From Arenicola marina (lineage: Eukaryota; Annelida; Polychaeta; Arenicolidae): a stretch of 64,000 bases of DNA. The position numbers and the translations under genes are program-made. The notes beneath the pieces are model-generated. The model was not told where the DNA came from. It made no database searches and was given only the letters and a program-made list of their open reading frames with translations. Each line of letters begins with the position of its first letter. Position 1 is the stretch's first letter. Below are positions 15,726-52,662 of this stretch, piece by piece. The stretch is from positions 33,598,254-33,662,253 of the forward strand of contig OZ025260.1 of assembly GCA_964019135.1 (NCBI GenBank). The letters run 5' to 3'.

Positions 15726-15899
15726 TCACTTCCTCCCCTTCTTGCTGAGGGTGGAGGCCTGTTGCTGGGCGGCCATGGCGGCAGCTGACTTTTTCTTCTG
15801 GAGCTGGTTCATCTCGTCCTCCAGTTGCTGTTTGCGGTTATCCAGTTTCTTCTTATCCTCGGCGTGTTGCCGTTTGAGGGCCTCGAACTTGGCGTGCAG
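15726..15899 (-). CDS. SEPTIN6: Septin terminal exon: coiled coil and stop
   Basis: Encodes [20 protein letters not shown], continues as a Lys/Gln/Glu-rich coiled coil and ends LSKKGRK with TGA at 15728-15726. The acceptor is GGCCAG. The Lys-rich terminus resembles the KDKDKKN tails of vertebrate SEPT6/8/11. Confidence 0.95.
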   Translation of the reverse strand: MHAKFEALKRQHAEDKKKLDNRKQQLEDEMNQLQKKKSAAAMAAQQQASTLSKKGRK

Positions 15900-18800
15900 C
15901 TGGCCGGACAAAGACAACATACAGTCAATGACCCACTCAGACTTAAAGTTGCATGTGGAGTTGTTTCGCTGTTTTTGAATGCCAAATTTGCGTATAAGAA
16001 CACAAACCTAAGGCCTTAAGGTTCATAACAGAAAATAAACACCTACCATATCACTCACCAATTATCTGCCAATGAGCAAAACATTTCAAATTCATGAATT
16101 GTCCGCCACAAAAATGAAAACTTGAGCTGATTTGAAACGTCATAAACGTGTGTAAACAAGTCGTTAAATTATATGAGACAATAGAAGCGTCCGGAGCGCC
16201 ACTTTTTCTTTGGCGGTGGCCGTTGACGCTGCTTGTGGTCAAAGGTAACATTTCCTGTTTATGTTTATTTTGGTCAGCTCCACATGTAACTTTAAACTTT
16301 TAAACAATTCTGTGCACACTATCAACAGAGGAACTCTGGAGAATTTAAATTCAGTTGGAATTCTTACATATACCTCAAAACACGTTTGAGCCACCTACCC
16401 TTCAAACCTACCCCACCCCTCACCCTACCCTACCTCCAACCCTCCGGACCCCCCCCCCCCCCCCTCGCACATTTCAAACCTTCTCCATCCCCCCCCACCC
16501 CATGCACCCACTTCAAACCCTCCCCCACCCAACCCACTCACATCTTTCTCGGCCTCCTTGAGCTCAGATTCTTTTTCCTTGACGCGAACCACGAACATCT
16601 GCTTCATCTCTTCCTCTTTCTTCTGCAGACTGGCCAGGTGCTCCTGTCGCTTCTGCTCGTAGTTCTCAGTGAAGCTGACGGACAGAGAAGTCTTTTATCC
16701 CCGGGCAATGTTATTTACCTCTCAAACGACGATTACGCGAGCCCCATGTAAACACAACTATTTCATTTAATATTTTTTTATTTTGAATAGTTATTGTTAA
16801 GTCACGGTAACTATGGTTACGAAGCAAGTACAAATAACGGTTGATATGGAATCAATATAAATATTAGTACAACAGATATCGGTACTCAAAATACAAACAC
16901 GATAGAACGCCATAACGGTAGGCCGCCAGTGTCTACCAACAAACACGATAGAACGCCATAACGGTACGCCGTGACGTCTACCAACAAACACAATAGAACG
17001 CCATAACGGTACGCCGTGACGTCTACCAACAAACACAATAGAACGCCATAACGGTACGCCGTGACGTCTACCAACAAACACAATAGAACGCCATAACGGT
17101 ACGCCGTGACGTCTACCAACAAACACAATAGAACGCCATAACGGTACGCCGTGACGTCTACCAACAAACACAATAGAACGCCATAACGGTACGCCGTGAC
17201 GTCTACCAACAAACACAATAGAACGCCATAACGGTACGCCGTGACGTCTACCAACAAACACAATAGAACGCCATAACGGTACGCCGTGACGTCTACCAAC
17301 AAACACAATAGAACGCCATAACGGTACGCCGTGACGTCTACCAACAAACACAATAGAACGCCATAACGGTAGGCCGTGATGTCTACCAACAAACACAATA
17401 GAACGCCATAACGGTAGGCCGTGATGTCTACCAACAAACACAAAACGCCATAACGGTAGGCCGTGATGTCTACCAACAAACGCAGTAGAACGCCATAACG
17501 GTACGCCGTGACGTCTACCAACAAACGCAGTAGAACGCCATAACGGTAGGCCGTGACGTCTACCAACAAACGCAGTAGAACGCCATAACGGTAGGCCGTG
17601 ACGTCTACCAACAAACGCAGTAGAACGCCATAACGGTACGCCGTGATGTCTACCAACAAACACAAAACGCCATAACGGTAGGCCGTGATGTCTACCAACA
17701 AACACAAAACGCCATAACGGTAGGCCGTGATGTCTACCAACAAACACAAAACGCCATAACGGTAGGCCGTGACGTCTACCAACAAACGCAGTAGAACGCC
17801 ATAACGGTAGGCCGTGACGTCTACCAACAAACGCAGTAGAACGCCATAACGGTACGCCGTGATGTCTACCAACAAACACAAAACGCCATAACGGTAGGCC
17901 GTGATGTCTACCAACAAACACAAAACGCCATAACGGTACGCCGTGACGTCTACCAACAAACGCAGTAGAACGCCATAACGGTAGGCCGCCAGTGTCTACC
18001 AACAAACGCAGTAGAACGCCATAACGGTACGCCGTGATGTCTACCAACAAACACAAAACGCCATAACGGTACGCCGTGACGTCTACCAACAAACGCAGTA
18101 GAACGCCATAACGGTACGCCGTGACGTCTACCAACAAACACAATAGAACGCCATAACGGTAGGCCGTGATGTCTACCAACAAACACAAAACGCCATAACG
18201 GTACGCCGTGACGTCTACCAACAAACGCAGTAGAACGCCATAACGGTAGGCCGCCAGTGTCTACCAACAAACGCAGTAGAACGCCATAACGGTAGGCCGC
18301 CAGTGTCTACCAACAAACACAATAGAACGCCATAACGGTAGGCCGCCAGTGTCTACCAACAAACGCAGTAGAACGCCATAACGGTAGGCCGTGATGTCTA
18401 CCAACAAACACGATAGAACGCCATAACGGTACGCCGTGACGTCTACCAACAAACACAATAGAACGCCATAACGGTACGCCGTGACGTCTACCAACAAACG
18501 CAGTAGAACGCCATAACGGTAGGCCGTGACGTCTACCAACAAACACAATAGAACGCCATAACGGTACGCCGTGACGTCTACCAACAAACACAATAGAACG
18601 CCATAACGGTACGCCGTGATGTCTACCAACAAACGCAGTAGAACGCCATAACGGTAGGCCGCCAGTGTCTACCAACAAACACAATAGAACGCCATAACGG
18701 TAGGCCGCCAGTGTCTACCAACAAACACAATAGAACGCCATAACGGTACGCCGTGACGTCTACCAACAAACGCAGTAGAAAGCCATAACGGTAGGCCGCC

Positions 18801-21800
18801 GCCAGTGTCTGTGAGCCTCTCACCTCATGGAGTCGCTGTCAGAGAAGCCCATCTCGCCCAGCTTACAGCGCCGGTACAGCTCGAAGTGCCGGAAGTGCGT
18901 CATGTCCATCAAGTCCTGCATGTTGGTCCGGATCAACATCTCTCGCAACTTGACGAAGTCGCAGTGGTTCTCGTTCTCGACTGAAGCAAACAGTGGCTTT
19001 CATTCAGTCCACACTGTGGGTGTACATTACCAGCCTTCAGTCCACACTGTGGGTGTACATTACCAGCATTCAGTCCACATTGTGGGTGTACATTACCAGC
19101 ATTCAGTCCACATTGTGGGTGTACATTACCAGCCTTCAGTCCACACTGTGGGTGTACATTACCAGCCTTCAGTCCACACTGTGGGTGTACATTACCAGCA
19201 TTCAGTCCACACTGTGGGTGTACATTACCAGCCTATTATTGGTAGGAATGCTAATCGTTTATCTTTATACCGTAAGGTAATGGCCCAGTTTAGCCCTTGT
19301 GTGCACAAAATGGGTCTAAAACACAAATTCGTTTCATTTCATTTGTTAAGGTTAGGTATATATAATGCAAAGGGGAATCTGTGTTTTAGGCCTATTTTGT
19401 GCACAAATGGGCTAAAGCTGACATAAACTGGCCTCCAAAAATAATCCAGGATTTTTGGATCAAACGGTCCCTGTCACAGGTGGGGTTTGAACCCGCTACC
19501 GGTTTGTCTACAGTCGAGCACGCTACCCTCTCGACACTGCCGCTTACCATTTATAATGTATTCAACAACTCATTCAAAAGGCGCGGGGCAGTTTCCATGG
19601 TCCAAAACAATAATTCTATTAGTATAATGTGTTACATATACCGACAATGTCGTGACTTTGACTGACCTTGGACGGTGCCCCAGGGATATTGCCTGGCCTT
19701 GACCATCTTGTTTCCGACCTTGACCTCGTCCATGCTGCCCACCACGGCGAAGGGCAGCTGCCCCTGGCGGCGACAAACAACAACAGACAGTCAGTATGGG
19801 AACTACGCTCGGCTTGCGCCTTGGACGCATTGGGGTTAAACTGAATCCAACTATAATCTCACAAACCAAATATGAAACTTAAATAAGATTCGATGAGGAT
19901 TTAATTAACTAGGCGGCCAGACCACATACACAGTGAAAGTAACTATTGCCCGCTATTATTAAATAATATAAGACTTGTAATAATTATTAAAGTGATCAGA
20001 AGCCGCAGACGCGCGCTCACGCTGCAATGCATCACAATGACATTATAATGACAGCAATATTTAATACCTTATTATTAGTATTGTAATTAATGCTGTTAGC
20101 TTTCGGTACGAGACTCACATTCATGCTGGAGTTGAGTTCGGCGACGATCTCGTCGTCGGTCGGGAACTGGTAGATCTGGACCCCGTTACTCACCAACTCG
20201 TGCATCATCTGCCGCGGCAAGAAAATAGTCCAAGACTCGTAACAAAGACCTTCAAACATGTGTAATGTGTCATCAAGCGTGCACGTGCACCCCTCCCCCT
20301 CCTAATGTTACATATAACATTTGAACAGAGAAGGTCGATAGAATCGTTCTTTGTATTGCTCAATACGGAAAACAAAAGTTGTATTTTAGGATGTGCACAT
20401 AAATATTAAAATTAAATTGGGCCAAGTAAGGAACCTCCCGGGACAATGAACTGGGGTTGGATGAAACAGGCCATGATGCAGGTGTGAGGGAGCGAACCCA
20501 CGACCAGTTGATCTGAATCTCAGCTTGCATGGTCACCAAATGAGCCAAGGGCGCAGCCCAACTGAATACGGTTCCTCATTACGGATCGATATATAAGTGC
20601 TGCGTTATGCCCATGATACATCTGGCGAAGTTTCGGAAACTTTGTGACCGAAACTATTTACTGGTGTATCCTGGAAAGTTTCGGTCACTTTGTGTCAGAA
20701 ACTTTGTGTCCGAAGTTTCAACATGTCTGAATTAGGGACACAAAGTGTCCACATCATTAAAGTTTCGGTTACTTTGTGTCCGAACTTGTTTCAGACACAA
20801 AGTAACCGAAAGTTTAGATGTATCATGGCCATTAGATGCGCTTAGTGAGTTCCGTTGGTACCGAGGATAGAGTCGTTGCGTACCTTGACTTTGAATTTCT
20901 GCAGTTCCTGCTTGGTGATGGTGTCTGCTTTGGCAATGACGGGAATAATATTGACCTTGCTGTCCAGCTTCTTCATGGTCACTAGATCCAGAGCCTTGAG
21001 TCTGCAACAGAGAAGGGAGGGGGTGGGGGCATGGAAATATCAAACAGTCAAGTTTTATGATAAAGGCATAAAAGCCGAAGATCCCAAAATCAGACGTCTC
21101 ATATACGCATTGATACACCAAACTTTTTTCAAAACGCCACTGGTGCCATAACAACGTGGGTGAGAGGGTTACTTTCGAGTGTCCGGTGGGGGCGATGAAG
21201 TAAAGACACGTCGGTGAGAGGGTTACTTACGAGTGTCCGGTGGGGGCGATGAAGTATAGACACACGTGGGTGAGAGGGTTACTTACGAGTGTCCGGTGGG
21301 GGCGATGAAGTATAGACATAAGTGGGTGAGAGGGTTACTTACGAGTGTCCGGTGGGGGCGATGAAGTATAGACATAAGTGGGTGAGAGGGTTACTTACGA
21401 GTGTCCGGTGGGGGCGATGAGGTATAGACACACGTGGGTGAGAGGGTTACTTACGAGTGTCCGGTGGGGGCGATGAAGTAAAGACACGTGGGTGAGAGGG
21501 TTACTTACGAGTGTCCGGTGGGGGCGATGAGGTATAGACACACGTGGGTGAGAGGGTTACTTACGAGTGTCCGGTGGGGGCGATGAGGTATAGACACACG
21601 TCGGTGAGAGGGTTACTTACGAGTGTCCGGTGGGGGCGATGAAGTATAGACACACGTGGGTGAGAGGGTTACTTACGAGTGTCCGGTGGGGGCGATGAAG
21701 TATAGACACACGTGGGTGAGAGGGTTACTTACGAGTGTCTGGTGGGGGCGATGAGGTACAGACACACGTGGGTGAGAGGGTTACTTACGAGTGTCCGGTG

Positions 21801-24800
21801 GGGGCGATGAAGTATAGACACACGTGGGTGAGAGGGTTACTTACGAGTGTCCGGTGGGGGCGATGAATTATAGACACACGTGGGTGAGAGGGTTACTTGC
21901 GAGTGTCCGGTGGGGGCGATGAAGTATAGACACACGTGGGTGAGAGGGTTACTTACGAGTGTCCGGTGGGGGCGATGAAGTATAGACACACGTGGGCGAG
22001 AGGGTTATTTACGAGTGTCCGGTGGGGGCGATGAGGTACAGACACACGTGGGTCAGAGGGTTACTTACGAGTGTTCGGTGGGGGCGATGAAGTATAGACA
22101 CACGTGGGTGAGAGGGTTACTTACGAGTGTCCGGTGGGGGCGATGAAGTATAGACACACGTGGGTGAGAGGGTTACTTACGAGTGTCCGGTGGGGGCGAT
22201 AAAGTACAGACACACGTGGGTGAGAGGGTTACTTACGGGTGTCCGGTGGGGGCGATGAGGCATAGACACACGTGGGTGAGAGGGTTACTTACGAGTGTCT
22301 GGTGGGGGCGATGAGGTATAGACACACGTGGGTGAGAGGGTTACTTACGAGTGTCCGGTGGGGGCGATAAAGTACAGACACACGTGGGTGAGAGGGTTAC
22401 TTACGAGTGTCCGGTGGGGGCGATGAGGTATAGACACACGTGGGTGAGAGGGTTACTTACGAGTGTCCGGTGGGGGCGATGAAGTATAGACACACGTGGG
22501 TGAGAGGGTTACTTACGAGTGTCCGGTGGGGGCGATGAGGTACAGACACACGTGGGTGAGAGGGTTACTTACGAGTGTCCGGTGGGGGCGATGAAGTATA
22601 GACACACGTGGGTGAGAGGGTTACTTACGAGTGTCCGGTGGGGGCGATAAAGTACAGACACACGTGGGTGAGAGGGTTACTTACGAGTGTCCGGTGGGGG
22701 CGATGAGGTATAGACACACGTGGGTGAGAGGGTTACTTACGAGTGTCCGGTGGGGGCGATGAGGTATAGACACACGTGGGTGAGAGGGTTACTTACGAGT
22801 GTCCGGTGGGGGCGATGAAGTAAAGACACACGTGGGTGAGAGGGTTACTTACGAGTGTCCGGTGGGGGCGATAAAGTACAGACACACGTGGGTGAGAGGG
22901 TTACTTACGAGTGTCCGGTGGGGGCGATGAGGTACAGACCCACGTGGGTGAGAGGGTCACTTACGAGTGTCCGGTGGGGGCGATGAGGTACAGACACACG
23001 TGGGTGAGAGGGTTACTTACGAGTGTCCGGTGGGGGCGATGAAGTACAGACACACGTGGGTGAGAGGGTTACTTACGAGTGTCCGGTGGGGGCGATGAAG
23101 TATAGACACACGTGGGTGAGAGGGTTACTTACGAGTGTCCGGTGGGGGCGATGAAGTATAGACACACGTGGGTGAGAGGGTTACTTACGAGTGTCCGGTG
23201 GGGGCGATGAAGTATAGACACACGTGGGTGAGAGGGTTACTTACGAGTGTCCGGTGGAGGCGATGAGGTATAGACACACGTGGGTGAGAGGGTTACTTAC
23301 GTGTGTCCGGTGGGGGCGATGAAGTACAGACACACGTGGGTGAGAGGGTTACTTACGAGTGTCCGGTGGGGGCGATGAATTACAGACACACGTGGGTGAG
23401 AGGGTTACTTACGAGTGTCCGGTGGGGGCGATGAGGTATAGACACACGTGGGTGAGAGGGTTACCTACGAGTGTCCGGTGGGGGCGATGAATTATAGACA
23501 CACGTGGGTGAGAGGGTTACTTACGAGTGTCCGGTGGGGGCGATGAAGTATAGACACACGTGGGTGAGAGGGTTACTTACGAGTGTCCGGTGGGGGCGAT
23601 GAAGTATAGACACACGTGGGTGAGAGGGTTACTTACAAGTGTCCGGTGGGGGCGATGAGGTATAGACACACGTGGGTGAGAGGGTTACTTACGAGTGTCC
23701 GGTGGGGGCGATGAAGTATAGACACACGTGGGTGAGAGGGTTACTTACGAGTGTCTGGTGGGGGCGATGAGGTACAGACACACGTGGGTGAGAGGGTTAC
23801 TTACGAGTGTCCGGTGGGGGCGATGAAGTATAGACACACGTGGGTGAGAGGGTTACTTACGAGTGTCCGGTGGGGGCGATGAAGTATAGACACACGTGGG
23901 TGAGAGGGTTACTTACGAGTGTCCGGTGGGGGCGATGAAGTATAGACACACGTGGGTGAGAGGGTTACTTACGAGTGTCCGGTGGGGGCGATGAATTATA
24001 GACATACGTGGACAGACACACGTGGGTGAGAGGGTTACTTACGAGTGTCCGGTGGGGCCGATGAAGTATAGACACACGTGGGTGAGAGGGTTACTTACGA
24101 GTGTCCGGTGGGGGCGATGAATTATAGACATACGTGGGTGAGAGGGTTACTTACGAGTGTCCGGTGGGGGCGATGAAGTATAGACACACGTGGGTGAGAG
24201 GGTTACTTACGAGTGTCCGGTGGGGGCGATGAAGTATAAACACACGTGGGTGAGAGGGTTACTTACGAGTGTCCGGTGGGGGCGATGAGGTATAGACACA
24301 CGTGGGTGAGAGGGTTGCTTACGAGTGTCCCGTGGGGGCGATGAAGTATAGACACACGTGGGTGAGAGGGTTACTTATGAGTGTCTGGTTGGGGCGATGA
24401 GGTATAGACACACGTGGGTGAGAGGGTTACTTACGAGTGTCCGGTGGGGGCGATGAAGTATAGACACACGTGGGTGAGAGGGTTACTTACGAGTGTCCGG
24501 TGGGGGCGATGAGGTACAGACACACGTGGGTGAGAGGGTTACTTACGAGTGTCTGGTTGGGGCGATGAGGTACAGACACACGTGGGTGAGAGGGTTACTT
24601 ACGAGTGTCCGGTGGGGGCGATGAAGTACAGACACACGTGGATGCGCGAGTCGTGAAACGTGTGCAGTGACCTCTTGACCTTGAGTTCCTCCTGAAGGTA
24701 GGACTCAAACTGGGCGTCGATGTAGTCCACGATCGACTTATAGCTGGTGGCAGGAGAAAAAAGATCGGCACTTAGTTCAGTAACGTGTGATATATTTCAC

Positions 24801-27800
24801 AATGAAATGTTCAATTACAATTTTGCATAATAAATATAACAGGCGAGAAAATACGCTGGCGTTTTTCACCTTGTAACCGAACCTTTGATAAAATACGCGC
24901 ACACAAAGTCATTTTGAAAGAAAAATAACCAGACAATTGCGGTGTGCGCAGGTCTTAATGATGTAGTGAGTGTCTCTATAGTTGGAGACCCGCGCATTCC
25001 TACGCCAGGCTCACCTGTCCGACTTGTCGATCTGGTCCCCGAAGCCCACGCTGTCCACTATAGTCAGCTTCAGCTTCACGTTGTTCTCCTCCAGATCTGT
25101 CAGCAGAACACACGCAACAGTCATCATCAGTGTCACGTGATCAATGGAAGTCATGGCAACCGAAGTTACTGATTTCTAGGAATATGGAGGCAGAGACATA
25201 TTTACCTAACCGAGTTAATTTACGATTATAGAAAAGAAAACATTAACAGTTGATTTTAAGCTGATTTTAAGGAGAACTTTTGAACCTTTACTGACTATAT
25301 AATGTACCCCCCCCCTCACCCCCCTCAACCACCTCCGGGGGTGTCTACCTACCGTATGTGTTGGCCTTCAGCTTCACCCCGGGCAGGTCGTGTGTACTCG
25401 GGGTGTCTACCTACCGTATGTGTTGGCCTTTAGCTTCACCCCAGGCAGGTCGTGTGTACTCGGGGTGTCTACCTACCGTATGTGTTGGCCTTTAGCTTCA
25501 CCCCAGGCAGGTCGTGTGTACTCGGGGTGTCTACCTACCGTATGTGTTGGCCTTTAGCTTCACCCCGGGCAGGTCGTGTGTACTCGGGGTGTCTACCTAC
25601 CGTATGTGTTGGCCTTTAGCTTCACCCCGGACAGGTCGTGTGTACTCGGGGTGTCTCCCTACCGTATGTGTTGGCCTTTAGCTTCACCCCGGGCAGGTCG
25701 TGTGTACTCGGGGTGTCTACCTACCGTATGTGTTGGCCTTTAGCTTCACCCCGGGCAGGTCGTGTGTACTCGGGGTGTCTACCTACCGTATGTGTTGGCC
25801 TTTAGCTTCACCCCGGGCAGGTCGTGTGTACTCGGGGTGTCTACCTACCGTATGTGTTGGCCTTTAGCTTCACCCCGGGCAGGTCGTGTGTACTCGGGGT
25901 GTCTACCTACCGTATGTGTTGGCCTTTAGCTTCACCCCGGACAGGTCGTGTGTACTCGGGGTGTCTACCTACCGTATGTGTTGGCCTTTAGCTTCACCCC
26001 GGACAGGTCGTGTGTACTCGGGGTGTCTACCTACCGTATGTGTTGGCCTTTAGCTTCACCCCGGGCAGGTCGTGTGTACCCGGGGTGTCTACCTACCGTA
26101 TGTGTCGGCCTTTAGCTTCACCCCAGGCAGGTCGTGTGTACTCGGGGTGTCTACCTACCGTATGTGTTGGCCTTTAGCTTCACCCCAGGCAGGTCGTGTG
26201 TACTCGGGGTGTCTACCTACCGTATGTGTTGGCCTTTAGCTTCACCCCGGGCAGGTCGTGTGTACTCGGGGTGTCTACCTACCGTATGTGTTGGCCTTTA
26301 GCTTCACCCCGGGCAGGTCGTGTGTACTCGGGGTTCCGTTGAAGCGGTTGTTAAACAATGTGTCAATCAAAGTCGATTTACCGATTCCCGTCTCGCCTAG
26401 AAGCATAAAAAATATATACAATGGTGACGCAATTGTGTACACAAGCGCTGAACTAGGCCACGAAACCTTCCGGTACGGTGAAGGACGATGGAAAGCATAG
26501 TACCGAACGTCATCAGTCGTGATAACACACAGACAGCAAATTATGAAAAAGTTTATCTGATATCGTTAACTCATTTATCCGATGTATGCATCATATCTCT
26601 CTGCATGCTAAGAGGCAAAAACACGCGATGCCCCGATTTTGAAGATGTAGTACACACGAGAGCCACACTTCCTTTATACGTCTAGCGTGTATGTATTGCG
26701 CACGATAACTATGTACTCATACAGTAGACATCAAGTCAAACAGGACCTTCACGGTGTATGAGCAGCATTAGGACGCACAGTCCAGAGCAACAATCGATAC
26801 GACAATTTGCCGTGAGACGGGACCTCGAGGATGAAATCACATGGCAAGAACTGATAGAGCGCGAGAGCTTTAATTGAACAGCGTCGACGTCGACGGCGCC
26901 GCACCTGCTTGCTCAGTGTGCAGCAGGGATGAGCAGCAGACCAACAGGTCTGGGCTTCGAACACCGACATCTGCATCTTGGGCAGGTGTCGTCCAATCCC
27001 ATTGGTTTGATTATCCCGGAAGTTTTCTTGGCCCAATTTTGGGCCTTCGTGTGCGCTAATAACAGTTGCCTAAACGACCAACATTTCAAAAGGTCGTATT
27101 GCAATGCATGAAATGAGGGAGGCAATAAACCAGGGCTGGTTGTATATTTAGGACGCTTTAACCAATTCTGGTCATATCGCGTCAATGGGAGAAGGAAGGG
27201 AAGAGCGGAGCCATGTCCCCGGGGGTAACCCCCTACTCTTTGCGAAGGAAATCGGATCTTTATCCTGCGACCACACAGACACGGCCACAGCGGGGTTCGA
27301 ACCACAGATCCACGGGCCGTTAGGCTCTCAGCTGACCAGAGCACTCAAGGCGAGCGTTCTGACCCACTGAGCCACCGGGCCGGTCCCTGCTAGTACCCGG
27401 ATGAACTCGGTAAGTGTGACACGTGTGCTCCCAGGAAGTAGCGTATAGCACTATATAAATAGACACATTTCTCCATTTTTTCAGTAATATATATTTACGC
27501 ACATAATGTGCGCTGCTTTTGTTGAGGTCTGTTCGCTGAGATGCTCATTGTAACTGAGGGGGGGGGGGGACTTAACACGCGTCGAGTCAACAAACTCGTT
27601 TGCCGAATTTGCCGCGGAATAAAAAACAGGTTCCTGGTGGTCAGAGGCGTGGCTTATCCCCATGACAACCACGGTTCCTATCAGCGCCGTGTACTGTCAA
27701 GTAGCCCGCCGAGGGAGGCCCGCTCCCCCCGCCCACCCGTCGTTTTGTTCAGGCTGCCTTGTTAGCACGGAGAAGAATTTTTGTGTCGTATAAAAACAAG

Positions 27801-30060
27801 CCGATACGGACAACGGGTAGTAAAGATAAACCTCTTCAATTCAAAACTCAGTATATTAAGTGGTAGTCGAGACAAGAACTCAACAAGAGTATGGCAGGTA
27901 AGTAAGTGATCGGGCAGTTGGTGCTTGTGGAGGGCAACGCCTCGGAGTCCAGGGGAAGTGAAAACGATCGCCGACCGTAAATAGGCTGGAGATTTTTTTT
28001 TGTAATTCTAGCTATTTCTGCGCAGAGCAACACTACGTAGTTCATATAGATTGATGTCTTTGAGTTATGAAGTTTATATTAGCTATTAGAACACCATCAA
28101 TATTTTATGAAATTCAACTAAACTGCACACACAGCTGATCGTAGCAAACAGATTCGTGCAACTCACTTGTCTGCCATGAGAGTAGAATTGCAACAAAAGA
28201 GTAAAATTAATACCTCAAATGTATGAATGTCTATAAACTACTTTTATATAGGACAGGGAGTCTCAGAAGAGCTAGCTAAAATAGTAAAAATCATGTGTGT
28301 GCAGTAGTTGACCATTTTGATGGGTATGTATGATCCTTTCGTGCCTCGCCCGCTGCGAGTCGAGGCGTTCAGGGCGCACAGACTTCTGGGAAGGGGCGGC
28401 TGTGACGTCATCCCGACAGCACCCACGTCAGACGCTGACAGACGCCGGCGTGTAATGGATGACCACTAAGAGTGACAAGGTCGCCGGGGACGTTGGAACA
28501 AGTCACTTGGCTGATAAGAAGTTCCCGGCGAAAGCGTCACCTCGCGAGACTCGCCGAGACTTCACTGATGACGGGACGGGGGGGGGGGGTGGGGGAGGGG
28601 GCTAACACCCCTGATTAGGAGGGAGTTGGTGGGGATGTGGTGGGGGGGGGGGGGTGAGGGTGGAGGGTCAGGGACGGAGGGATGGAAGGTCGGGGAACAG
28701 GGAGGAGATAGTCGCCTTTTATATGATTATCAGTAGGAAACAATGGACCGCTTACAAAGTTGGTCCCTGATGCCTCAAGGTTGACATCTATACATGGGGC
28801 CGGTGGCAGAGATAAGGCTAAGCCATGGCTGCGAGTTAACATGGCAAACACGTGGCCTCTGGCATAGTGTGCTTTGAGGTCAGGATGGAGCAAAAGGACA
28901 GCGCTGACTCCACCAACCGGGACACATGCCTACATTTTTTTCTAGCAAATGTTCACTAGAAAAAAAAACTATTTGCGTTTTTGTTGTATAATTACAAATA
29001 TAAAGTGAGCAGTGATTCTAATAGGTATGTCACTGGTTGAGCCCCGGTGTCCCAGAGCTCATTAAAATTATGGGACACCCGATAAATAATGAGACATTAA
29101 CTTAAATGAATTATTGCATAGTCTGCTCACTATATATTTACAATGCGTCAGTCACATGTCCCATAACCGCTCAATGACATGCGTCATTTAAATTGTTGTG
29201 CTACAAATGACGCAGGACGCGTACCTGTCAAATCGCTGAGTGAGCTATATATTTGCTTTTTGAGGATGTGTGTGGGGGGGGGGGGCAGAATGTGATGACA
29301 AGCTGAACTGATCGGATCGAGCTACAAGTGGGGTTTGAACCTACGACCGATTGGTGGGAGCCCCCCCCCCCCCCTTCCCACCCTCACACCACCCCATTAC
29401 TATGGCGGGGTAGTTACATAAACATAGCGGGTGGTATACTACAGGCGGGCCGGCGGGCGGGCGGGTGGACACACCCCGGTCCCTAGACAGTACGAGTACT
29501 GTGTGGCGGAACCTCGCAGCAGGAACACCAAACAGCTTAGATACAAACAGTTTATCGCAGTCTGACCCCGACACTTCATCACCCACCGACTGCGGCCATC
29601 AAGGCCTGGCTTATGGAAGATCTCAGGAGACAGTCACTCGGCGAACCCAGCAGTGATCAACCACACCCGGGTTTTCATCGCTAATCGTGTATCATAACGC
29701 GCTCGTATCGACCGCCTGCGCTGTGGTATGTGATAAAACGTCCTAACTGCACCCACCACGTACTGGTGCAGGTTGCAGCCTCAGATCACAATCAATATGT
29801 ACCGTGATATATCGAGACCATGGAGACAACGAAAAGGGGTTGAGCCCAAGAGTGCTTTGAGCCACTTGTGTGTCCATGCAGGCTAAAATTGAGCCGGGAA
29901 AGTGCGCGGGACAATGCCATGGGGTTGGATGAAATATGTCCCAGGTGCATGGGCCCGGGTGCGAACCCAAGACCAGAGTCCAATGCTAACCAACTGATGA
30001 GCCAGTGATTGATGATAAGGGGGACCAAGTGTGTATGCACAGTGGTGTCATGACATGGCA

Positions 30061-30102
<42 letters not shown>

Positions 30103-33100
30103 GACCATCTAATGACCAGGAAGTCGCACAACTCACCCACGCACAGGATATTGAAAGCAAACCTCCGTCCGCGAAACTGTCGCTCCAGCCACTTGGTGCT
30201 AGTATCCAGAAGGTCGCAATCTCCGTCCGAGAGTCCCCCACTGTCCGCCTGATCCCGGACAGTCCTGGACAATCCGGATCTCGATGGCGGCGACCGCTGG
30301 CCATCCAGAGGAAGTCCCACCCTAGTCAAGTGCACCTCCTTTTCACACAGTCCCATCGCTAGCTAATATCCCACTATGTATATGATAAACAATATCACAA
30401 GTCGAAAATACTTAATCGTAACATCCTGATTCTGAGTTCATGGAGAGTGATCCTGTATCCAGACAGTTCCGAGAAGGCGTCCGGAGCCTCAGAGAATTAA
30501 GGTATCCAACGATCCTCCTATATATATACAGTATACAGATTGCGCAGTTACAACTATCCAGTATTCCGGCTCATCCCGCGACGTCCGCGCCAGGTATCCG
30601 GCAGATCCTGGTGTACCTGATCCGGACACTCAATACGGTGGCGGGTGAGAAAAAAAACACCCGAAGAAGCAGCCCAAGCAACCTGTGATGTGACCGCAGT
30701 CCACAGACGTCGCCTCGGGATGCCTCACAGCAGCCAACGAGAGTGAAACCAACCGCCAGGGGCCGCCACCGGGAAGCGGGTCGATCCTGACAGCGTGCGC
30801 CGCGCTTGTCCTGAAGCACCGCCTCCACAGGCACTGCCTCTGGCGCCCTGGAGCGGTCGTGTCACTGGCGGTATATCTGTCGTATCGAGAATATAGTAAG
30901 CAGGACGCCTTCGGGATGAGAGACCAGAGCCGCCGTCACTGGGTCACCAATATGTATATCCCGACACTGCGATCACTGGTATCAAGTAACCGCAGACAAA
31001 ACAGAATGTCTGCCTTAACCCACAAGGGAAAGTTACATTACTGTAGTCAACTTCCTATACCAGGAATCCGTCTTTGTCGTAGCCTTACTACATCATGAAT
31101 GAATGGTTGCGGTAGATGTCGTATATCTAAAAGGTGTCATTGTTGTATCTTTCCTGTCAGTAATATGTCGTAGTTTCCTACCCCAGAAATGTAGTTGTTG
31201 TTCATTAGTCACACATCCCTCGCCGACTAACGACTGACCAATGGGTGCTTACGTCCGCATCTACCGCACACTGCCGCCGTGGGCTTGTAAAACAGTTGTC
31301 ATCGAGTGTGTGCGGATATGTTGGCCTTTCGCCTCATGCTGGGGCCACTTACTTACCCGCCCTGTAGCTGTACCACTAACCCGACCGTTTGGAAGTCACT
31401 GTCAGCAAGTAATCCAGCGCTTTACGGTGATGTTACACCCCCACACACAGAGACAGAGAGAGAGAGAGGGAGAGAGAGGGAGAGAGAGGGTGGACAGTCG
31501 GTCGCCCCGCTCTGTCGCCCCCGACAATCAATTATAGAACACACGAATTAGTTTCAGGGCCGAGATGTCTCCGCCTTGGTAGGTACCACGTGACGGCGGA
31601 TCACCCCCTCCCGTCACACTCCCCTCTCCCCCTCCACCCCCCCCCCCTCCACCAAGCCGACCCAGACACGCGGTAACATACACACACCTAAAGTTGGGAC
31701 ACACATCAGTAACAACAGTTCACTTGCCTTGGGCGGCAAAGGCCTTGTTATTACGGGGATCCATGTGCTGGGGGTATATATAGCACGACAGAATATTATT
31801 AGTTGAGTCTATGGAGTATCCACCCCCACCCCCACCCCCGCCTCCGTCTCCTCCACTCCCGCCCCGTACCGGTCGCGCATGACATGGTATGGAATCACTG
31901 CGCTCCGTGCCGTATATAACACCTGACATACACATATATATTATATACATATATACTAATGTATCTTACCGCTGCTCTGATCATATAATACAATACACTG
32001 CGACAAAACAATTTCCCGCAAAATTCGAGCCACAATAATCACCAGTACTCGATCCTGCATGGACTAATCGATCACTTTCAGATCACTGTTAATCACTATG
32101 AATCACTACGGAACTATTTCCACATCCATCAAACACTCTATGGATCACTTTCCGCACCCATCAAACACTCTATGGATCACTTTCCACGCCCATCAAACAC
32201 TCTATGGATCACTTTCTACACCCATCAAACACTCTATGGATCACTTTCCACACCCATCAAACACTCTATGGATCACTTTCTACACCCATCAAACACTCTA
32301 TGGATCACTTTCTACACCCATCAAACACTCTATGGATCACTTTCTACACCCATTAAACATTCTATGGATCACTTTCTACACCCATCAAACACTCTATGGA
32401 TCACTTTCTACACCCATCAAACATTCTATGGATCAATTTCTACACCCATCAAACACTCTATGGATCACTTTCCACGCTAAATCAAACACTCTATGGATCA
32501 CTTTCCACACCAATCAAACACTCTATGGATCACTTTCTACACCCATCAAACACTCTATGGATCACTTTCCACGCTAAATCAAACACTCTATGGATCACTT
32601 TCCACACCCATCAAACACTATATGGATCACTTTCCACGATAAATCAAACACTCTATGGATCACTTTCTACATCCATCAAACACTCTATAGATCACTTTCT
32701 ACACCCATCAAACACTATATGGATCACTTTCCACGCTAAATCAAACACTCTATGGATCACTTTCTACACCCATCAAACACTCTATGGATCACTTTCTACA
32801 CCCATCAAACACTCTATGGATCACTTTCCACACCCATCAAACACTCTATGGATCACTTTCCACGCTAAATCAAACACTCTATGGATCACTTTCTACACCC
32901 ATCAAACACTCTATGGATCACTTTCTACACCCATCAAACACTCTATTGATCACTTTCCACACCCATCAAACACTCCATGGGTCACTTTCCACACGAGGCC
33001 TCATTCTAAGTTTGCTGAATAATTATCACATGGATGAAGATACACAATGCCCGATGAGACAGTTGTGTCATTGCCCCCTCCCATCCCTATCATCGATTTA

Positions 33101-36100
33101 GGCCCTGTGGACACATTATCTGGACGCCCAGTGTGGCCACATCCGCGTCAGTCAGCGTTATAAAACACAGGGAGTGCACAGCACACAGCTTCTCGTCCTG
33201 CCTCGGTATCACAATAGAACAGCTTCGAGAAAGTACCACCTGCACCAAACCCCGACCCCCCCAGCCCCGCCACCGCCCATATTGACCTACATATACGTAC
33301 AGTGAGGAGCGGCTGTAGTTCAGTTGGTAGCACGATCAGCTTGTGAGTCCGGGAATGTTATTATTACATTATCCCGGGATGTCACACATCGATCATGCGT
33401 GCGCAAACCTGGCCCAAAACACCAATAGAATCTACCATTCACTAAATATCCCGGTAATCATTATTACTCAGTAGATTCATCAGCAGTTATCGGCGTTCCG
33501 GCTTAACCCATATGTCCACAAATGTTACCTAAAACACCAATTCACTGGTTCCACCCCCTGGTCGGGCCAACCGCGCGGTGACCCAGCACCACTGGTCCCA
33601 CCCCCTGGTCGGGCCAACCGCGCGGTGACCCAGCACCACTGGTCCCACCCCCTGGTCGGGCCAACCGCGCGGTGACCCAGCACCACTGGTCCCACCCCTT
33701 GGTCGGGCCAACCGCGCGGTGACCCAGCACCACTGGTCCCACCCCCTGGTCGGGCCAACCGCGCGGTGACCCAGCACCACTGGTCCCACCCCCTTGTCGG
33801 GCCAACCGCGCGGTGACCCAGCACCACTGGTCCCACCCCCTGGTCGGGCCAACCGCGCGGTGACTCAGCACCACTGGTCCCACCCCCTGGTCGGGCCAAC
33901 CGCGCGGTGACCCAGCACCACTGGTCCCACCCCCTGGTCGGGCCAACCGCGCGGTGACCCAGCACCACTGGTCCCACCCCCTGGTCGGGCCAACCGCGCG
34001 GTGACCCAGCACCACTGGTCCCACCCCTTGGTCGGGCCAACCGCGCGGTGACCCAGCACCACTGGTCCCACCCCCTGGTCGGGCCAACCGCGCGGTGACC
34101 CAGCACCACTGGTCCCACCCCCTGGTCGGGCCAACCGCGCGGTGACCCAGCACCACTGGTCCCACCCCCTGGTCGGGCCAACCGCGCGGTGACCCAGCAC
34201 CACTGGTCCCACCCCCTGGTCGGGCCAACCGCGCGGTGACCCAGCACTACTAGTCCCAACCCCTGGTCGGGCCAACCGCGCGGTGACCCAGCACCACTGG
34301 TCCCACCCCCTGGTCGGGCCAACCGCGCGGTGACCCAGCACCACTGGTCCCACCCCCTGGTCGGGCCCACCGCGCGGTGACCCAGCACCACTGGTCCCAC
34401 CCCCTGGTCGGGCCCACCGCGCGGTGACCCAGCACCACTGGTCCCACCCCCTGGTCGGGCCAACCGCGCGGTGACCCAGCACCACTGGTCCCACCCCCTG
34501 GTCGGGCCCACCGCGCGGTGACCCAGCACCACTGGTCCCACCCCCTGGTCGGGCCCACCGCGCGGTGACCCAGCACCACTGGTCCCACACCCTGGTCGGG
34601 CCCACCGCGCGGTGACCCAGCACCACTGGTCCCACCCCCTGGTCGGGCCAACCGCGCGGTGACCCAGCACCGCTGGTCCCACCCCCTGGTCGGGCCCACC
34701 GCGCGGTGACCCAGCACCACTGGTCCCACCCCCTGGTCGGGCCCACCGCGCGGTGACCCAGCACCACTGGTCCCACCCCCTGGTCGGGCCCACCGCGCGG
34801 TGACCCAGCACCACTGGTCCCACCCCCTGGTCGGGCCAACCGCGCGGTGACCCAGCACCGCTGGTCCCACCACCTGGTCGGGCCCACCGCGCGGTGACCC
34901 AGCACCACTGGTCCCACCCCCTGGTCGGGCCCCCCGCGCGGTGACCCAGCACCACTGGTCCCACGCCCTGGTCGGGCCCACCGCGCGGTGACCCAGCACC
35001 ACTGGTCCCACCCCCTGGTCGGGCCAACCGCGCGGTGACCCAGCACCGCTGGTCCCACCCCCTGGTCGGGCCAACCGCGCGGTGACCCAGCACCACTGGT
35101 CCCACCCCCTGGTCGGGCCAACCGCGCGGTGACCCAGCACCACTGGTCCCACCCCCTGGTCGGGCCAACCGCGCGGTGACCCAGCACCGCTGGTCCCACC
35201 CCCTGGTCGGGCCAACCGCGCGGTGACCCAGCACCGCTGGTCCCACCCCCTGGTCGGGCCCACCGCGCGGTGACCCAGCACCACTGGTCCCACCCCCTGG
35301 TCGGGCCCACCGCGCGGTGACCCAGCACCACTGGTCCCACGCCCTGGTCGGGCCCACCGCGCGGTGACCCAGCACCACTGGTCCCACCCCCTGGTCGGGC
35401 CAACCGCGCGGTGACCCAGCACCGCTGGTCCCACCCCCTGGTCGGGCCAACCGCGCGGTGACCCAGCACCACTGGTCCCACCCCCTGGTCGGGCCAACCG
35501 CGCGGTGACCCAGCACCACTGGTCCCACCCCCTGGTCGGGCCAACCGCGCGGTGACCCAGCACCGCTGGTCCCACCCCCTGGTCGGGCCAACCGCGCGGT
35601 GACCCAGCACCACTGGTCCCACCCCCTGGTCGGGCCAACCGCGCGGTGACCCAGCACCACTGGTCCCACCCCCTGGTCGGGCCCACCGCGCGGTGACCCA
35701 GCACCACTGGTCCCACCCCCTGGTCGGGCCCACCGCGCGGTGACCCAGCACCACTGGTCCCACACCCTGGTCGGGCCCACCGCGCGGTGACCCAGCACCA
35801 CTGGTCCCACCCCCTGGTCGGGCCAACCGCGCGGTGACCCAGCACCACTGGTCCCACCCCCTGGTCGGGCCAACCGCGCGGTGACCCAGCACCGCTGGTC
35901 CCACCCCCTGGTCGGGCCAACCGCGCGGTGACCCAGCACCACTGGTCCCACCCCCTGGTCGGGCCAACCGCGCGGTGACCCAGCACCACTGGTCCCACCC
36001 CTGGTCGGGCCCGCCGTCCGGTATGAAGGGCGGCGGTATGCATACATGGGTGTGGGGGGGGGGGCAGTAAATCACCCCCAAGGACAGTGGTGGGACGGAC

Positions 36101-39100: not shown

Positions 39101-42100
39101 AATTGGAAATGTACCAGTGATTACCCGGGGTACCAGTGATTTCTGGGAGGTACCAACCCAGGTACCAGCGATTTCTGGGAGGTACCAACCCAGGTACCAG
39201 CGATTCCTGGGAGGTACCAACCCAGGTGCCAGCGATTTCTGGGAGGTACCAACCCAGGTGCCAGCGATTTCTGGGAGGTACTAACTTAGGTACCAGTGAT
39301 TTCTGGGAGGTACTAACTAAGGTACCAGCGATTTCTGGGAGGTACTAACTAAGGTACCAGTGATTTCTGGAAGGTACTACCCAGGTACCAGATCTGGAGT
39401 CATTGTTAATGTACCAAGGATCTGTAATGATTGTTAATGTACCAGGGATCCGGAATGAGTGTTAACGTACCAGGCATCTGGAATACCTGTGATTAGCAAT
39501 GTACCAGGGATCTGGAGTAGCAGGGATCTGGAGTACCAAGGATCTGGAGTACCAGGGATCTAGAGTAATTGTTAATGTACCAGGGATCTGAAATACTTGT
39601 GATTGTCAATGCACCAGGGCTCTCGAGTACCAGTGATTGTTAATGTATCAGGGATCTGGATTACCAGTGATTGTTACTGTATCAGGGATCTGGAGTACCA
39701 GTGATTGTGAATGTACCAGGGATCTGGAGTAAAAGTGATTGTGAATGTACCAGGATCTGGAGTACCAGTGATTGTGAATGTACCAGGATCTGGAGTACCA
39801 GTGATTGTGAATGTACCAGGGATCTGGAGTACCAGTGATTGTGAATGTACCAGGATCTGGAGTACCAGTGATTGTTAATGTACCAGGATCTGGAGTACCA
39901 GTGATTGTGAATGTACCAGGATCTGGAGTACCAGTGATTGTTAATGTACCAGGATCTGGAGTACCAGTGATTGTTAATGTACCAGGATCTGGAGTACCAG
40001 TGATTGTTAATGCACCAGGGCTCTGGAGCACCAGTGATTGTGAATGTACCGTGATCTGGAGTACCAGTGAATGTTAATGTACCAGGATCTGGAGTACCAG
40101 TGATTGTTAATGTACCAGGATCTGGAGTACCAGTTATTGTGAATGTACCAGGATCTGGAGTACCAGTGATTGTTAATGTACCAGGATCTGGAGTACCAGT
40201 TATTGTGAATGTACCAGGATCTGGAGTACCAGTAATTGTGAATGTACCAGGATCTGGAGTACCAGTGATTGTGAATGTACCAGGGATCTGGAGTACCAGT
40301 GGTTGTGAATGTACCAGGATCTGGAGTACCAGTGATTGGTAATGCACCAGGGCCCTGGAGCACCAGTGATTGTTAATGTACCAGGATCTGGAGTACCAGT
40401 GATTGTTAATGTACCAGGATCTGGAGTACCAGTGATTGTTAATGCACCAGGGCTCTGGAGTACCAGTGATTGTGAATGTACCAAGATCTGGAGTACCAGT
40501 GATTGTGAATGTACCAGGGATCTGGAGCACCAGTGATTGGTAATGTACCAGGATCTGGAGTACCAGTGATTGTTAATGTACCAGGATCTGGAGTACCAGT
40601 GATTGTTAATGCACCAGGGCTCTGGAGCACCAGTGATTGTTAATGTACCAGGATCTGGAGTACCAGTGATTGTGAATGTACCAGGGCTCTGGAGCACCAG
40701 TGATTGTGAATGTACCAGGATCTGGAGTACCAGTGATTGTGAATGTACCAGGGATCTGGAGTACCAGTGATTGTTAATGTACCAGGATATGGAGTACCAG
40801 TGATTGTTAATGTACCAGGGATCTGGATTACCAGTGATTGTTACTGTATCAGGGATCTGGAGTACCAGTGATTGTTAATGTACCAGGATCTGGAGTACCA
40901 GTGATTGTTAATGTACCAGGATCTGGAGTACCAGTGATTGTTAATGTACCAGGATCTGGAGTACCAGTGATTGTGAATGTACCAGGGATCTGGAGTACCA
41001 GTGATTGTGAATGTACCAGGATCTGGAGTACCAGTGATTGTGAATGTACCAGGGATCTGGAGTACCAGTGATTGTGAATGTACCAGGATCTGGAGTACCA
41101 GTGATTGTGAATGTACCAGGCTCTGGAGTACCAGTGATTGTTAATGTACCAGGATCTGGAGTACCAGTGATTGGTAATGTACCAGGATCTGGAGTACCAG
41201 TGATTGTTAATGCACCGGGGCTCTGGAGCACCAGTGATTGTTAATGTACCAGGATCTGGAGTACCAGTGATTGTTAATGTACCAGGATCTGGAATACCAG
41301 TGATTGTGAATGTACCAGGAATCTGGAGTACCAGTGATTGTTAATGTACCAGGATCTGGAGTACCAGTGACTGTTAATGTCTGGAGTACCAGTGATTGTT
41401 AATGCACCAGGGCTCTGGAGCACCAGTGATTGTTAATGTACCAGGATCTGGAGTACCAGTGATTGTTAATGTACCAGGATCTGGAGTACCAGTGATTGTA
41501 AATGCACCAGGGCTCTGGAGTACCAGTGATTGTGAATGTACCAGGATCTGGAGTACCAGTGATTGTGAATGTACCAGGATCTGGAGTACCAGTGATTGGT
41601 AATGCACCAGGGCCCTGGAGCACCAGTGATTGTTAATGTACCAGGATCAGGAGTACCAGTGATTGTTAATGTACCAGGATCTGGAGTACCAGTGATTGTT
41701 AATGCACCAGGGCTCTGGAGTACCAGTGATTGTGAATGTACCAAGATCTGGAGTACCAGTGATTGTGAATGTACCAGGGATCTGGAGCACCAGTGATTGT
41801 TAATGTACCAGGATCTGGAGTACCAGTGATTGTGAATGTACCAGGATCTGGAGTACCAGTGATTGTTAATGCACCAGGGCTCTGGAGCACCAGTGATTGT
41901 TAATGTACCAGGATCTGGAGTACCAGTGATTGTGAATGTACCAGGGCTCTGGAGCACCAGTGATTGTGAATGTACCAGGATCTGGAGTACCAGTGATTGT
42001 GAATGTACCAGGGATCTGGAGTACCAGTGATTGTTAATGTACCAGGATATGGAGTACCAGTGATTGTTAATGTACCAGGGATCTGGATTACCAGTGATTG

Positions 42101-45100
42101 TTACTGTATCAGGGATCTGGAGTACCAGTGATTGTTAATGTACCAGGATCTGGAGTACCAGTGATTGTTAATGTACCAGGATCTGGAGTACCAGTGATTG
42201 TTAATGTACCAGGATCTGGAGTACCAGTGATTGTGAATGTACCAGGGATCTGGAGTACCAGTGATTGTGAATGTACCAGGATCTGGAGTACCAGTGATTG
42301 TGAATGTACCAGGGATCTGGAGTACCAGTGATTGTGAATGTACCAGGATCTGGAGTACCAGTGATTGTGAATGTACCAGGATCTGGAGTACCAGTGATTG
42401 TTAATGTACCAGGATCTGGAGTACCAGTGATTGGTAATGTACCAGGATCTGGAGTACCAGTGATTGTTAATGCACCGGGGCTCTGGAGCACCAGTGATTG
42501 TTAATGTACCAGGATCTGGAGTACCAGTGATTGTTAATGTACCAGGATCTGGAATACCAGTGATTGTGAATGTACCAAGAATCTGGAGTACCAGTGATTG
42601 GTAATGTACCAGGATCTGGAGTACCAGTGACTGTTAATGTCTGGAGTACCAGTGATTGTTAATGCACCAGGGCTCTGGAGCACCAGTGATTGTTAATGTA
42701 CCAGGATCTGGAGTACCAGTGATTGTTAATGTACCAGGATCTGGAGTACCAGTGATTGTTAATGCACCAGGGCTCTGGAGTACCAGTGATTGTGAATGTA
42801 CCAGGATCTGGAGTACCAGTGATTGTGAATGTACCAGGGATCTGGAGTACCAGTGATTGTGAATGTACCAGGATCTGGAGTACCAGTGATTGTGAATGTA
42901 CCAGGATCTGGAGTACCAGTGATTGTTAATGTACCAGGATCTGGAGTACCAGTGATTGGTAATGTACCAGGATCTGGAGTACCAGTGATTGGTAATGTAC
43001 CAGGATCTGGAGTACCAGTGATTGTTAATGCACCGGGGCTCTGGAGCACCAGTGATTGTTAATGTACCAGGATCTGGAGTACCAGTGATTGTTACTGTAC
43101 CAAGATCTGGAATACCAGTGATTGTGAATGTACCAGGAATCTGGAGTACCAGTGATTGTTAATGTACCAGGATCTGGAGTACCAGTGACTGTTAATGTCT
43201 GGAGTACCAGTGATTGTTAATGTACCAGGATATGGAGTACCAGTGATTGTTAATGTACCAGGATCTGGAGTACCAGTGATTGTTAATGCACCAGGGCTCT
43301 GGAGTACCAGTGATTGTGAATGTACCAGGATCTGGAGTACCAGTGATTGTGAATGTACCAGGGATCTGGAGTACCAGTGATTGTGAATGTACCAGGATCT
43401 GGAGTACCAGTGATTGTGAATGTACCAGGATCTGGAGTACCAGTGATTGTTAATGTACCAGGATCTGGAGTACCAGTGATTGGTAATGTACCAGGATCTG
43501 GAGTACCAGTGATTGTTAATGCACCGGGGCTCTGGAGCACCAGTGATTGTTAATGCACCAGGATCTGGAGTACCAGTGATTGTTAATGTACCAGGATCTG
43601 GAATACCAGTGATTGTGAATGTACCAGGAATCTGGAGTACCAGTGATTGTTAATGTACCAGGATCTGGAGTACCAGTGATTGTTAATGCACCAGGGCTCT
43701 GGAGCACCAGTGATTGTTAATGTACCAGGATCTGGAGTACCAGTGATTGTTAATGTACCAGGATCTGGAGTACCAGTGATTGTTAATGCACCAGGGCTCT
43801 GGAGTACCAGTGATTGTGAATGTACCAGGATCTGGAGTACCAGTGATTGTGAATGTACCAGGGATCTGGAGCACCAGTGATTGTTAATGTAACAGGATCT
43901 GGAGTAACAGGGATCGTTAATGTACCAGGATCTGGAGTACCAGTGATTGTTAATGCACCAGGGCTCTGGAGCACCAGTGATTGTTAATGTACCAGGATCT
44001 GGAGTACCAGTGATTGTTAATGTACCAGGATCTGGAGTACCAGTAATTGTTAATGTACCAGGATCTGGAGTACCAGTGATTGTGAATGTACCAGGGATCT
44101 GGAGTACCAGTGATTGTGAATGTACCAGGATCTGGAGTACCAGTGATTGTGAATGTACCAGGATCTGGAGTACCAGTGATTGTTAATGTACCAGGATCTG
44201 GAGTACCAGTGATTGGTAATGCACCAGGGCTCTGGAGCATCAGTGATTGTTAGTGTACCAGGATCTGGAGTACCAGTGATTGTTAATATACCAGGATCTG
44301 GAGTACCAGTGATTGTTAATGTACCAGGATCTGGAGTACTAGTGATTGTTAATGTACCAGGATCTGGAGTACCAGTGATTGTTAATGTACCAGGATCTGG
44401 AGTACCAGTGATTGTTAATGTACCAGGATCTGGAGTACCAGTGATTGTTAATGCACCAGGATCTTGAGTAAAAGTGATTGTGAATGTACCAGGATCTGGA
44501 GTACCAGTGATTGTGAATGTACCAGGATCTGGAGTACCAGTGATTGTGAATGTACCAGGGATCTGGAGTACCAGTGATTGTGAATGTACCAGGATCTGGA
44601 GTACCAGTGATTGTGAATGTACCAGGGATCTGGAGTACCAGTGATTGTTAATGCACCAGGGCTCTGGAGTACCAGTGATTGTGAATGTACCAGTGATTAG
44701 CCGGGGTACCAGTGATTTCTGGGAGGTACCAACCCAGGTACCAGCGATTTCTGGGAGGTACCAACCCAGGTACCAGCGATTTCTGGGAGGTACCAACCCA
44801 GGTACCAGCGATTTCTGGGAGGTACCAACCCAGGTACCAGCGATTCCTGGGAGGTACCAACCCAGGTGCCAGCGATTTCTGGGAGGTACTAACTAAGGTA
44901 CCAGTGATTTCTGGAAGGTACTACCCATGTACCAGATCTGGAGTCATTGTTAATGTACCAAGGATCTGTAATGATTGTTAATGTACCAGGGATCTGGAAT
45001 GAGTGTTAACGTACCAGGCATCTGGAATACCTGTGATTAGCAATGTACCAGGGATCTGGAGTAGCAGGGATCTGGAGTACTAAGGATCTGGAGTACCAGG

Positions 45101-52503: not shown

Positions 52504-52662
52504 ATGGCTGAGGCTACGCCCACTGGGGAAGCTGATGTCAAAACGGCACGCGATGTGCTGAAAATGACAGGCAAAGATGAGCTGAAATTCGGGGTGCTGG
52601 TCGACTTGATCAAAGTCGGACAGGTACCAAACAAGGATGTCGTGGAGACAGTCCTCAACCTG
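52504..52662 (+). CDS. NBEA: Neurobeachin/LRBA-type BEACH protein, first coding exon (5' partial gene)
   Basis: The exon gives 53 codons from ATG (G at -3, G at +4) to the donor CTG|GTAGGT in phase 0. Residues 28-53 include KFGVLVDLIKVGQVPNKDVV followed by ETVLNL, which aligns with KFAVLIGLIQVGEVSNRDIV-ETVLNL at the N terminus of vertebrate neurobeachin and the near-identical LRBA segment. The variable residues before it (MAEATPTGEADV...) fit the poorly conserved extreme N terminus. Neurobeachin and LRBA are very large (over 2,800 residues) BEACH-WD40 scaffold proteins for membrane traffic and PKA anchoring. That is family knowledge. The next exon, expected to begin near LVGGEFDLEMNF, is not in the window. 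NBEA versus LRBA cannot be separated with this exon. Confidence 0.82.

Follow-up and report, generated by a model that had tools for sequence, protein, structure and literature searches.

Donor-spanning minisatellites in a septin gene of the annelid Arenicola marina resemble lancelet mirages

Introduction

Minisatellite-like tandem duplications of exon–intron boundaries, termed "mirages", have been described in the globin genes of lancelets, and the same is cited there for Adh3 (PMC3087553); a further paper adds the related repeats of PGBD5 and mentions Adh and troponin C (PMC3902484). The repeated units measure 10 to 72 bp in Adh3 and 150 to 160 bp in the globins, and haplotypes of BflGb6 carry 6 and 3 of them (PMC3087553). 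Length instability of these repeats is reported, and reverse transcription PCR suggests that they leave regular splicing undisturbed (PMC3087553). Here, we examine a comparable arrangement in a 64,000-nucleotide stretch of the Arenicola marina genome (contig OZ025260.1 of assembly GCA_964019135.1, positions 33,598,254 to 33,662,253), referred to below as the window. Within it, a septin gene carries two tandem arrays whose units each join the end of an exon to its own 5' splice site, or donor, so that the true donor is followed by a series of decoys. We interpret the larger array as, most probably, a tolerated intronic minisatellite of the mirage type, and weigh this against explanations in which the decoys serve a function or in which the arrays arise from another cause.

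Results

The septin gene of the 6/8/11 group lies on the minus strand at 15726–30320 (positions are those of the window, and all gene features below are on this strand). Its exons, E1 to E10, were placed by hand and their junctions checked; the start of E1 is uncertain, and the numbering is provisional, since more 5' exons may exist upstream, the array-bearing exon being termed E4 here. This exon (24603–24743, 141 nt, frame checked) encodes YKSIV...IAPTGHS behind the acceptor ccaccag/CTATAA, where the slash marks the junction. Its true donor, GTAAGT at 24597–24602, opens an intron 4 of 3601 nt, which is closed by the acceptor tgttgcag/ACTCAA of E5 (20884–21001, LKALDL...). The donor-carrying array, A1, spans 21154–24641. 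An initial annotation of the window had claimed a roughly 62-fold amplification of the exon end with its donor, and Tandem Repeats Finder agrees, giving a period of 56, 62.1 copies, and 94% matches. Fuzzy matching likewise returns 62 units including the true exon end, 60 of them of 56 bp and 2 of 54 bp (two of the 60 full-length units had additional leading bases, which were trimmed off). Each unit is made up of 39 nt of the end of E4, GTAAGT, and 11 nt of intron, the first holding ACACTC/GTAAGT; the annotated unit length and motif were thus correct, while its division into 38 exonic and 12 intronic nucleotides was not. As also annotated, the array begins at the real exon, 39 nt before the end of E4, and takes in the true donor.

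GTAAGT is intact in 56 of the 62 units, true donor included, which leaves 55 intact decoys downstream, and 51 of these match the true donor in their flanks as well (TC/GTAAGTAAC). The figure of about 61 decoys in the initial annotation stands, but to call all of them near-perfect was too strong, as 6 of the 61 have lost the motif (ATAAGT, GTAAGC, GTAGGT, GTAAAT, GCAAGT, and GAAAGT). The GAAAGT decoy is the most downstream unit, with its donor at 21176; the most downstream intact decoy lies at 21225–21230, and its use would produce an intron of 229 nt. Intron 4 holds 56 GTAAGT motifs, while the remaining 60.5 kb of the window have 17 on the two strands together, and the density in the intron is therefore far above chance (the 56 come from a direct count over the intron; a script anchored on GACAC found 61 of the 62 A1 donors). 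The described closeness to the U1 consensus fails just upstream of GTAAGT, the bases at −1 and −2 being C and T rather than G and A. With a U1 duplex of −7.3 kcal/mol, the true E4 donor is mid-range for this gene: the donors of E1, E2, E3, and E8 are stronger (−9.7 to −11.1 kcal/mol), those of E5, E6, E7, and E9 weaker (−5.5 to −6.6 kcal/mol), and E10, where the reading frame ends, has none.

Translation past the true E4 donor reads ...IAPTGHS-stop, with a TAA (24601–24599) in frame directly after the codon that the donor splits, so that use of a decoy would terminate the protein at the junction. Both the in-frame stop at the first junction and the claim that the first donor alone leaves the reading frame open are confirmed. 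Compared with the unit consensus, the copy in the exon itself has a single, synonymous difference in a Leu codon, and 21 of the 60 full-length units carry T17C (Phe to Leu), which indicates that the exonic portion of the copies is not kept coding. These 60 units comprise 28 distinct sequences. Identity between units is independent of their distance (0.958 to 0.965 over lags 1 to 15), as expected under frequent turnover, and the same comparison by lag yielded no higher-order structure. An irregular 70-bp pair of units at 23944–24081, which restarts at CCACG, is perhaps a trace of unequal exchange. Folded as RNA, three units do marginally better than shuffled sequences (z −1.8; 12 of 200 shuffles as good). 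Use of the units as cassette exons or in recursive splicing was set aside, as a scan limited to A1 found only 6 YAG sites, each with 9 to 11 pyrimidines among the 14 bases upstream.

A second donor-spanning array, A2, was absent from the initial annotation. It occupies 25338–26334, where 16 units of 62 bp span the end of E2, the P-loop exon (26283–26396, GETGIGKST...KANTY), and its donor ACG/GTAGGT. GTAGGT is retained in 15 of the 16 units, and translation past the true E2 donor reads NTYGR-stop, with a TAG in frame at 26277–26275. Two further arrays of the gene contain no splice signal and yet lie close to one: A3 (16893–18798, intron 8; 42.7 copies of a 45-bp unit) starts 25 nt past the E8 donor, which it excludes, and A4 (19003–19234, intron 7; 7 copies of a 33-bp unit) ends 22 nt upstream of the E8 acceptor. 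Reduced to single-unit footprints, all four arrays of the gene thus lie 0, 0, 25, and 22 nt from a splice junction. When four footprints were placed randomly in the collapsed gene, the summed distance gave p 0.003 (0.002 without wholly exonic footprints) and the occurrence of at least two junction overlaps gave p 0.063 (0.074 with the same exclusion), in a post hoc test that was chosen once the arrays were known and that concerns one gene.

Both donor-spanning arrays are bounded by short direct repeats. In A1, CCACGT stands upstream in E4 (24636–24641) and again at the intronic end (21154–21159), and in A2, ACCCC in E2 (26330–26334) has its partner at 25338–25342. Among random pairs of positions 56 or 62 bp apart, drawn from array-free parts of the septin gene, homology of at least 5 bp occurs in 0.78% and of at least 6 bp in 0.26%. 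The presence of these repeats at both array ends points to a duplication seeded by microhomology and followed by expansion. Slippage between the exonic and intronic repeats, or microhomology-mediated repair involving them, would have produced the first tandem duplication, and the array would then have been enlarged through slippage or unequal exchange.

If the decoys were maintained as donors, their six donor sites might be expected to vary less than the rest of the unit. In A1 (60 of the 62 units), 5 kinds of variant were found at the 6 donor sites against 23 at the 50 other sites, and in A2 (16 of 16 units), 1 at the 6 donor sites against 5 at the 56 others. Extra donor conservation was not found in the two arrays pooled, with 6 variant kinds per 12 donor sites versus 28 per 106 others (two-sided p 0.15; one-sided p for depletion 0.95). 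This counts against a maintained platform for U1, and the decoys themselves are probably without selected function.

The protein joined from the exons matches the Pfam family Septin (PF00735) with 318 bits, and its nearest solved chains are those of Septin-6 (593 bits), Septin-11 (475 bits), and Septin-8 (462 bits), with Septin-7 lower at 300 bits. One Septin-2 chain, 8dkt_B, reaches 451 bits, the remaining Septin-2 chains among the matches listed scoring at most 227. Judged by its GTPase domain and these nearest solved relatives, the gene is a septin of the 6/8/11 group. Among the 120 relatives listed, the best full-length-like identities are 79–80% and include annelid and nemertean sequences, with Branchiostoma belcheri at 74%. 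In a tree of 39 rows, the window septin falls in a set of 29 whose named rows are all spiralian (support 98/91), and it adjoins annelids with moderate support (98/76, 88/77, 81/84). Placement with Branchiostoma was rejected by the approximately unbiased (AU) test (p 0.011), as was a nemertean placement (p 0.015), whereas an annelid placement was not rejected (p 0.19) and a molluscan one was borderline (p 0.064); the constraint groups were chosen after inspection of the tree, and these p values serve as guides. The window septin thus groups with spiralians, probably near annelids.

The rest of the window is also rich in repeats. Minisatellite-like arrays make up about 34% of it (22.0 kb in 21 stretches picked from the repeat table). 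A very long 33-bp minisatellite at 39564–48194 holds about 260 copies over 8.6 kb, and a 32-bp block (GGTACCAGCGATTTC...) at 39129–39391 recurs inside it at 44705–44935, which suggests a multi-kilobase duplication. Upstream of septin exon E1 lies a 47-bp array (33543–36011, 52.6 copies, 97% matches), and G+C reaches 75% over 34001–36000. An inverted repeat at 51027–51678, with arms of 228 nt that are 90% complementary and 196 nt apart, is possibly a mobile element of the hairpin type. Cyclin-like exons on the plus strand at 1–1400 match Cyclin_C with 20.3 bits, under the Pfam cut-off of 22. A plus-strand exon at 52504–52663, which we take to resemble the N-terminus of neurobeachin, had no match in Pfam and PDB searches, and several minisatellites lie downstream of it, in its would-be first intron. 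Across the entire window, neither an Rfam nor a tRNA scan returned a match.

Discussion

In their anatomy, the septin arrays are closest to the lancelet mirages of Adh3, BflGb6, BflGb9, Adh, and troponin C, which likewise consist of boundary-spanning tandem units that copy a splice signal beside the authentic one (PMC3087553; PMC3902484). The units of A1 and A2 both lie across an exon–intron boundary, and their lengths of 56 and 62 bp fall in the reported range. The differences are in number and in host. There are 62 and 16 units here versus 6 and 3 in BflGb6, a comparison that uses the globin figures, and the presence of two boundary-spanning arrays in a single gene is a further difference from lancelet mirages. 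The septin arrays also span 5' boundaries alone, whereas both kinds of boundary are involved in the lancelet globins (PMC3087553). The host, going by the septin tree, is not a lancelet, which is a matter of distribution rather than anatomy, and because of this placement we class the arrays as mirage-type and not as lancelet mirages. Intron gain by tandem genomic duplication (PMC4974935; PMC3443670) likewise involves a duplication across a splice signal that yields extra splice sites; unlike in that process, there is no evident new intron in the septin gene, where a donor is present in nearly all A1 units but the array offers only 6 YAG sites. Among annelids, the metallothionein genes of earthworms also have minisatellite-sized tandem repeats in an intron; these are in the first intron, the part of the text covered describes no junction-spanning unit, and duplications of the fourth exon are reported to be missing from the final transcript (PMC12783039). 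Our literature search recognised no boundary-spanning minisatellites outside lancelets, although most subscription papers were outside its scope and it is no proof of absence.

The account that we consider most likely is that A1 is a mirage-type intronic minisatellite that the gene tolerates, in which exon definition would take the first donor, mistakes would be destroyed, and the decoys would have no selected function. Working across the exon, the spliceosome would pair the E4 acceptor with whichever donor is nearest, so that the upstream true donor would win, and the array would be tolerated because exon definition favours that donor. A study of alternative splice sites reports that the favoured donor is the one nearest across the exon where introns are large and the one nearest across the intron where they are short (PMC9225289); intron 4 measures 3601 nt, and this preference suggests that exon definition would choose the true donor. 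Tethering of the upstream 5' splice site to RNA polymerase II via U1, described in human cells, where cryptic intronic sites are involved too (PMC8316553), may further assist this choice. Transcripts spliced from a decoy, with their stop codon at the junction, would be expected to undergo nonsense-mediated decay (NMD). Beyond the sequence itself, we infer both the selection of the first donor and the loss of decoy transcripts through NMD.

Several observations weigh against this account. With each array collapsed to a single unit, introns 4 and 2 would measure about 169 and 251 nt, short enough for intron definition to be a possible mode of splicing, which would favour downstream decoys, so that early in the history of the arrays the balance could have been on the side of the decoys. 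The conservation test, with 12 donor sites, has low power; in A1, deviating cells are fewer at donor sites (1.4%) than at exonic sites (3.0%), though more than at intronic ones (0.5%), and 55 intact decoys out of 61 would also be expected under weak selection for decoys. Finally, a random origin alone leaves unexplained why four arrays lie within 25 nt of a junction (p 0.003, post hoc). This last point could be accounted for if DNA damage linked to splice junctions, for example through stalling of transcription near the donor, started minisatellites preferentially at exon–intron borders in this genome. We regard this as unlikely: all four septin arrays fit (distances of 0, 0, 25, and 22 nt; p 0.003, or 0.002 with exclusion of wholly exonic footprints), but the test is post hoc and limited to one gene, the overlaps alone give p 0.063 or 0.074, and of the 22 kb of arrays in the window, some 15 kb are outside the septin gene, where exons are incompletely mapped.

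Two functions proposed in the initial annotation, tuning of septin dose through NMD and a binding platform for U1, found no support, since the number of variant kinds per site is at least as high in the donors as elsewhere in the unit and since like arrays exist in lancelet genes with results that suggest regular splicing (PMC3087553; PMC3902484). As a splicing rheostat, the decoys would compete with the true donor for U1, a fraction of transcripts would take a decoy and be lost to NMD, and copy number would set the septin level. In favour of such a device are the 55 decoys that keep GTAAGT (51 of which share the flanks of the true donor too), the TAA in frame when the true E4 donor is passed, and the involvement of two donors of the gene, but given the lack of preferential donor conservation and the undisturbed splicing reported for lancelet mirages we find it improbable. 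Slightly more doubtful still is a compound version, in which allelic copy number would shift the balance between exon and intron definition, and so set the surviving septin mRNA, while a lineage-wide, junction-linked mutational process would form the arrays. For a platform of U1 small nuclear ribonucleoprotein, which would keep the transcript from being cleaved and polyadenylated too early (telescripting), one can cite the density of donor motifs (56 GTAAGT per 3.6 kb) and the described role of U1 in suppressing polyadenylation (PMC3826338). However, the donors are not extra conserved, and a search limited to the hexamers AATAAA and ATTAAA found neither in intron 4, leaving none there for U1 to suppress; these hexamers sit in introns 1, 6, 8, and 9, all without a donor-carrying array, and we hold a platform to be highly improbable. 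Assemblies often get the copy number of near-identical repeats wrong, and the array might accordingly be inflated or misjoined. The lancelet draft contains an aberrant assembly of one globin mirage (PMC3087553, additional file 4 legend), but we think an artefact very unlikely here, with 28 distinct sequences in 60 full-length units and single-copy E4 and E5 flanking the array in frame with each other, and the boundary-spanning unit would be real even if its copy number were wrong.

Taken as mirage-type minisatellites, the septin arrays extend the occurrence of boundary-spanning minisatellites beyond lancelets, to two donors within a single conserved cytoskeletal gene. Arrays of this sort might also provide material from which introns are gained, as has been proposed for lancelet globins (PMC3087553). 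With 55 GTAAGT decoys at near-regular 56-nt steps between an exon and the next acceptor, the locus also amounts to a natural experiment, in which the first donor would be expected under exon definition and the last intact decoys under intron definition. The conflict between the two makes it a useful test of splice-site choice, and the donor chosen would be readable from ordinary long-read RNA data.

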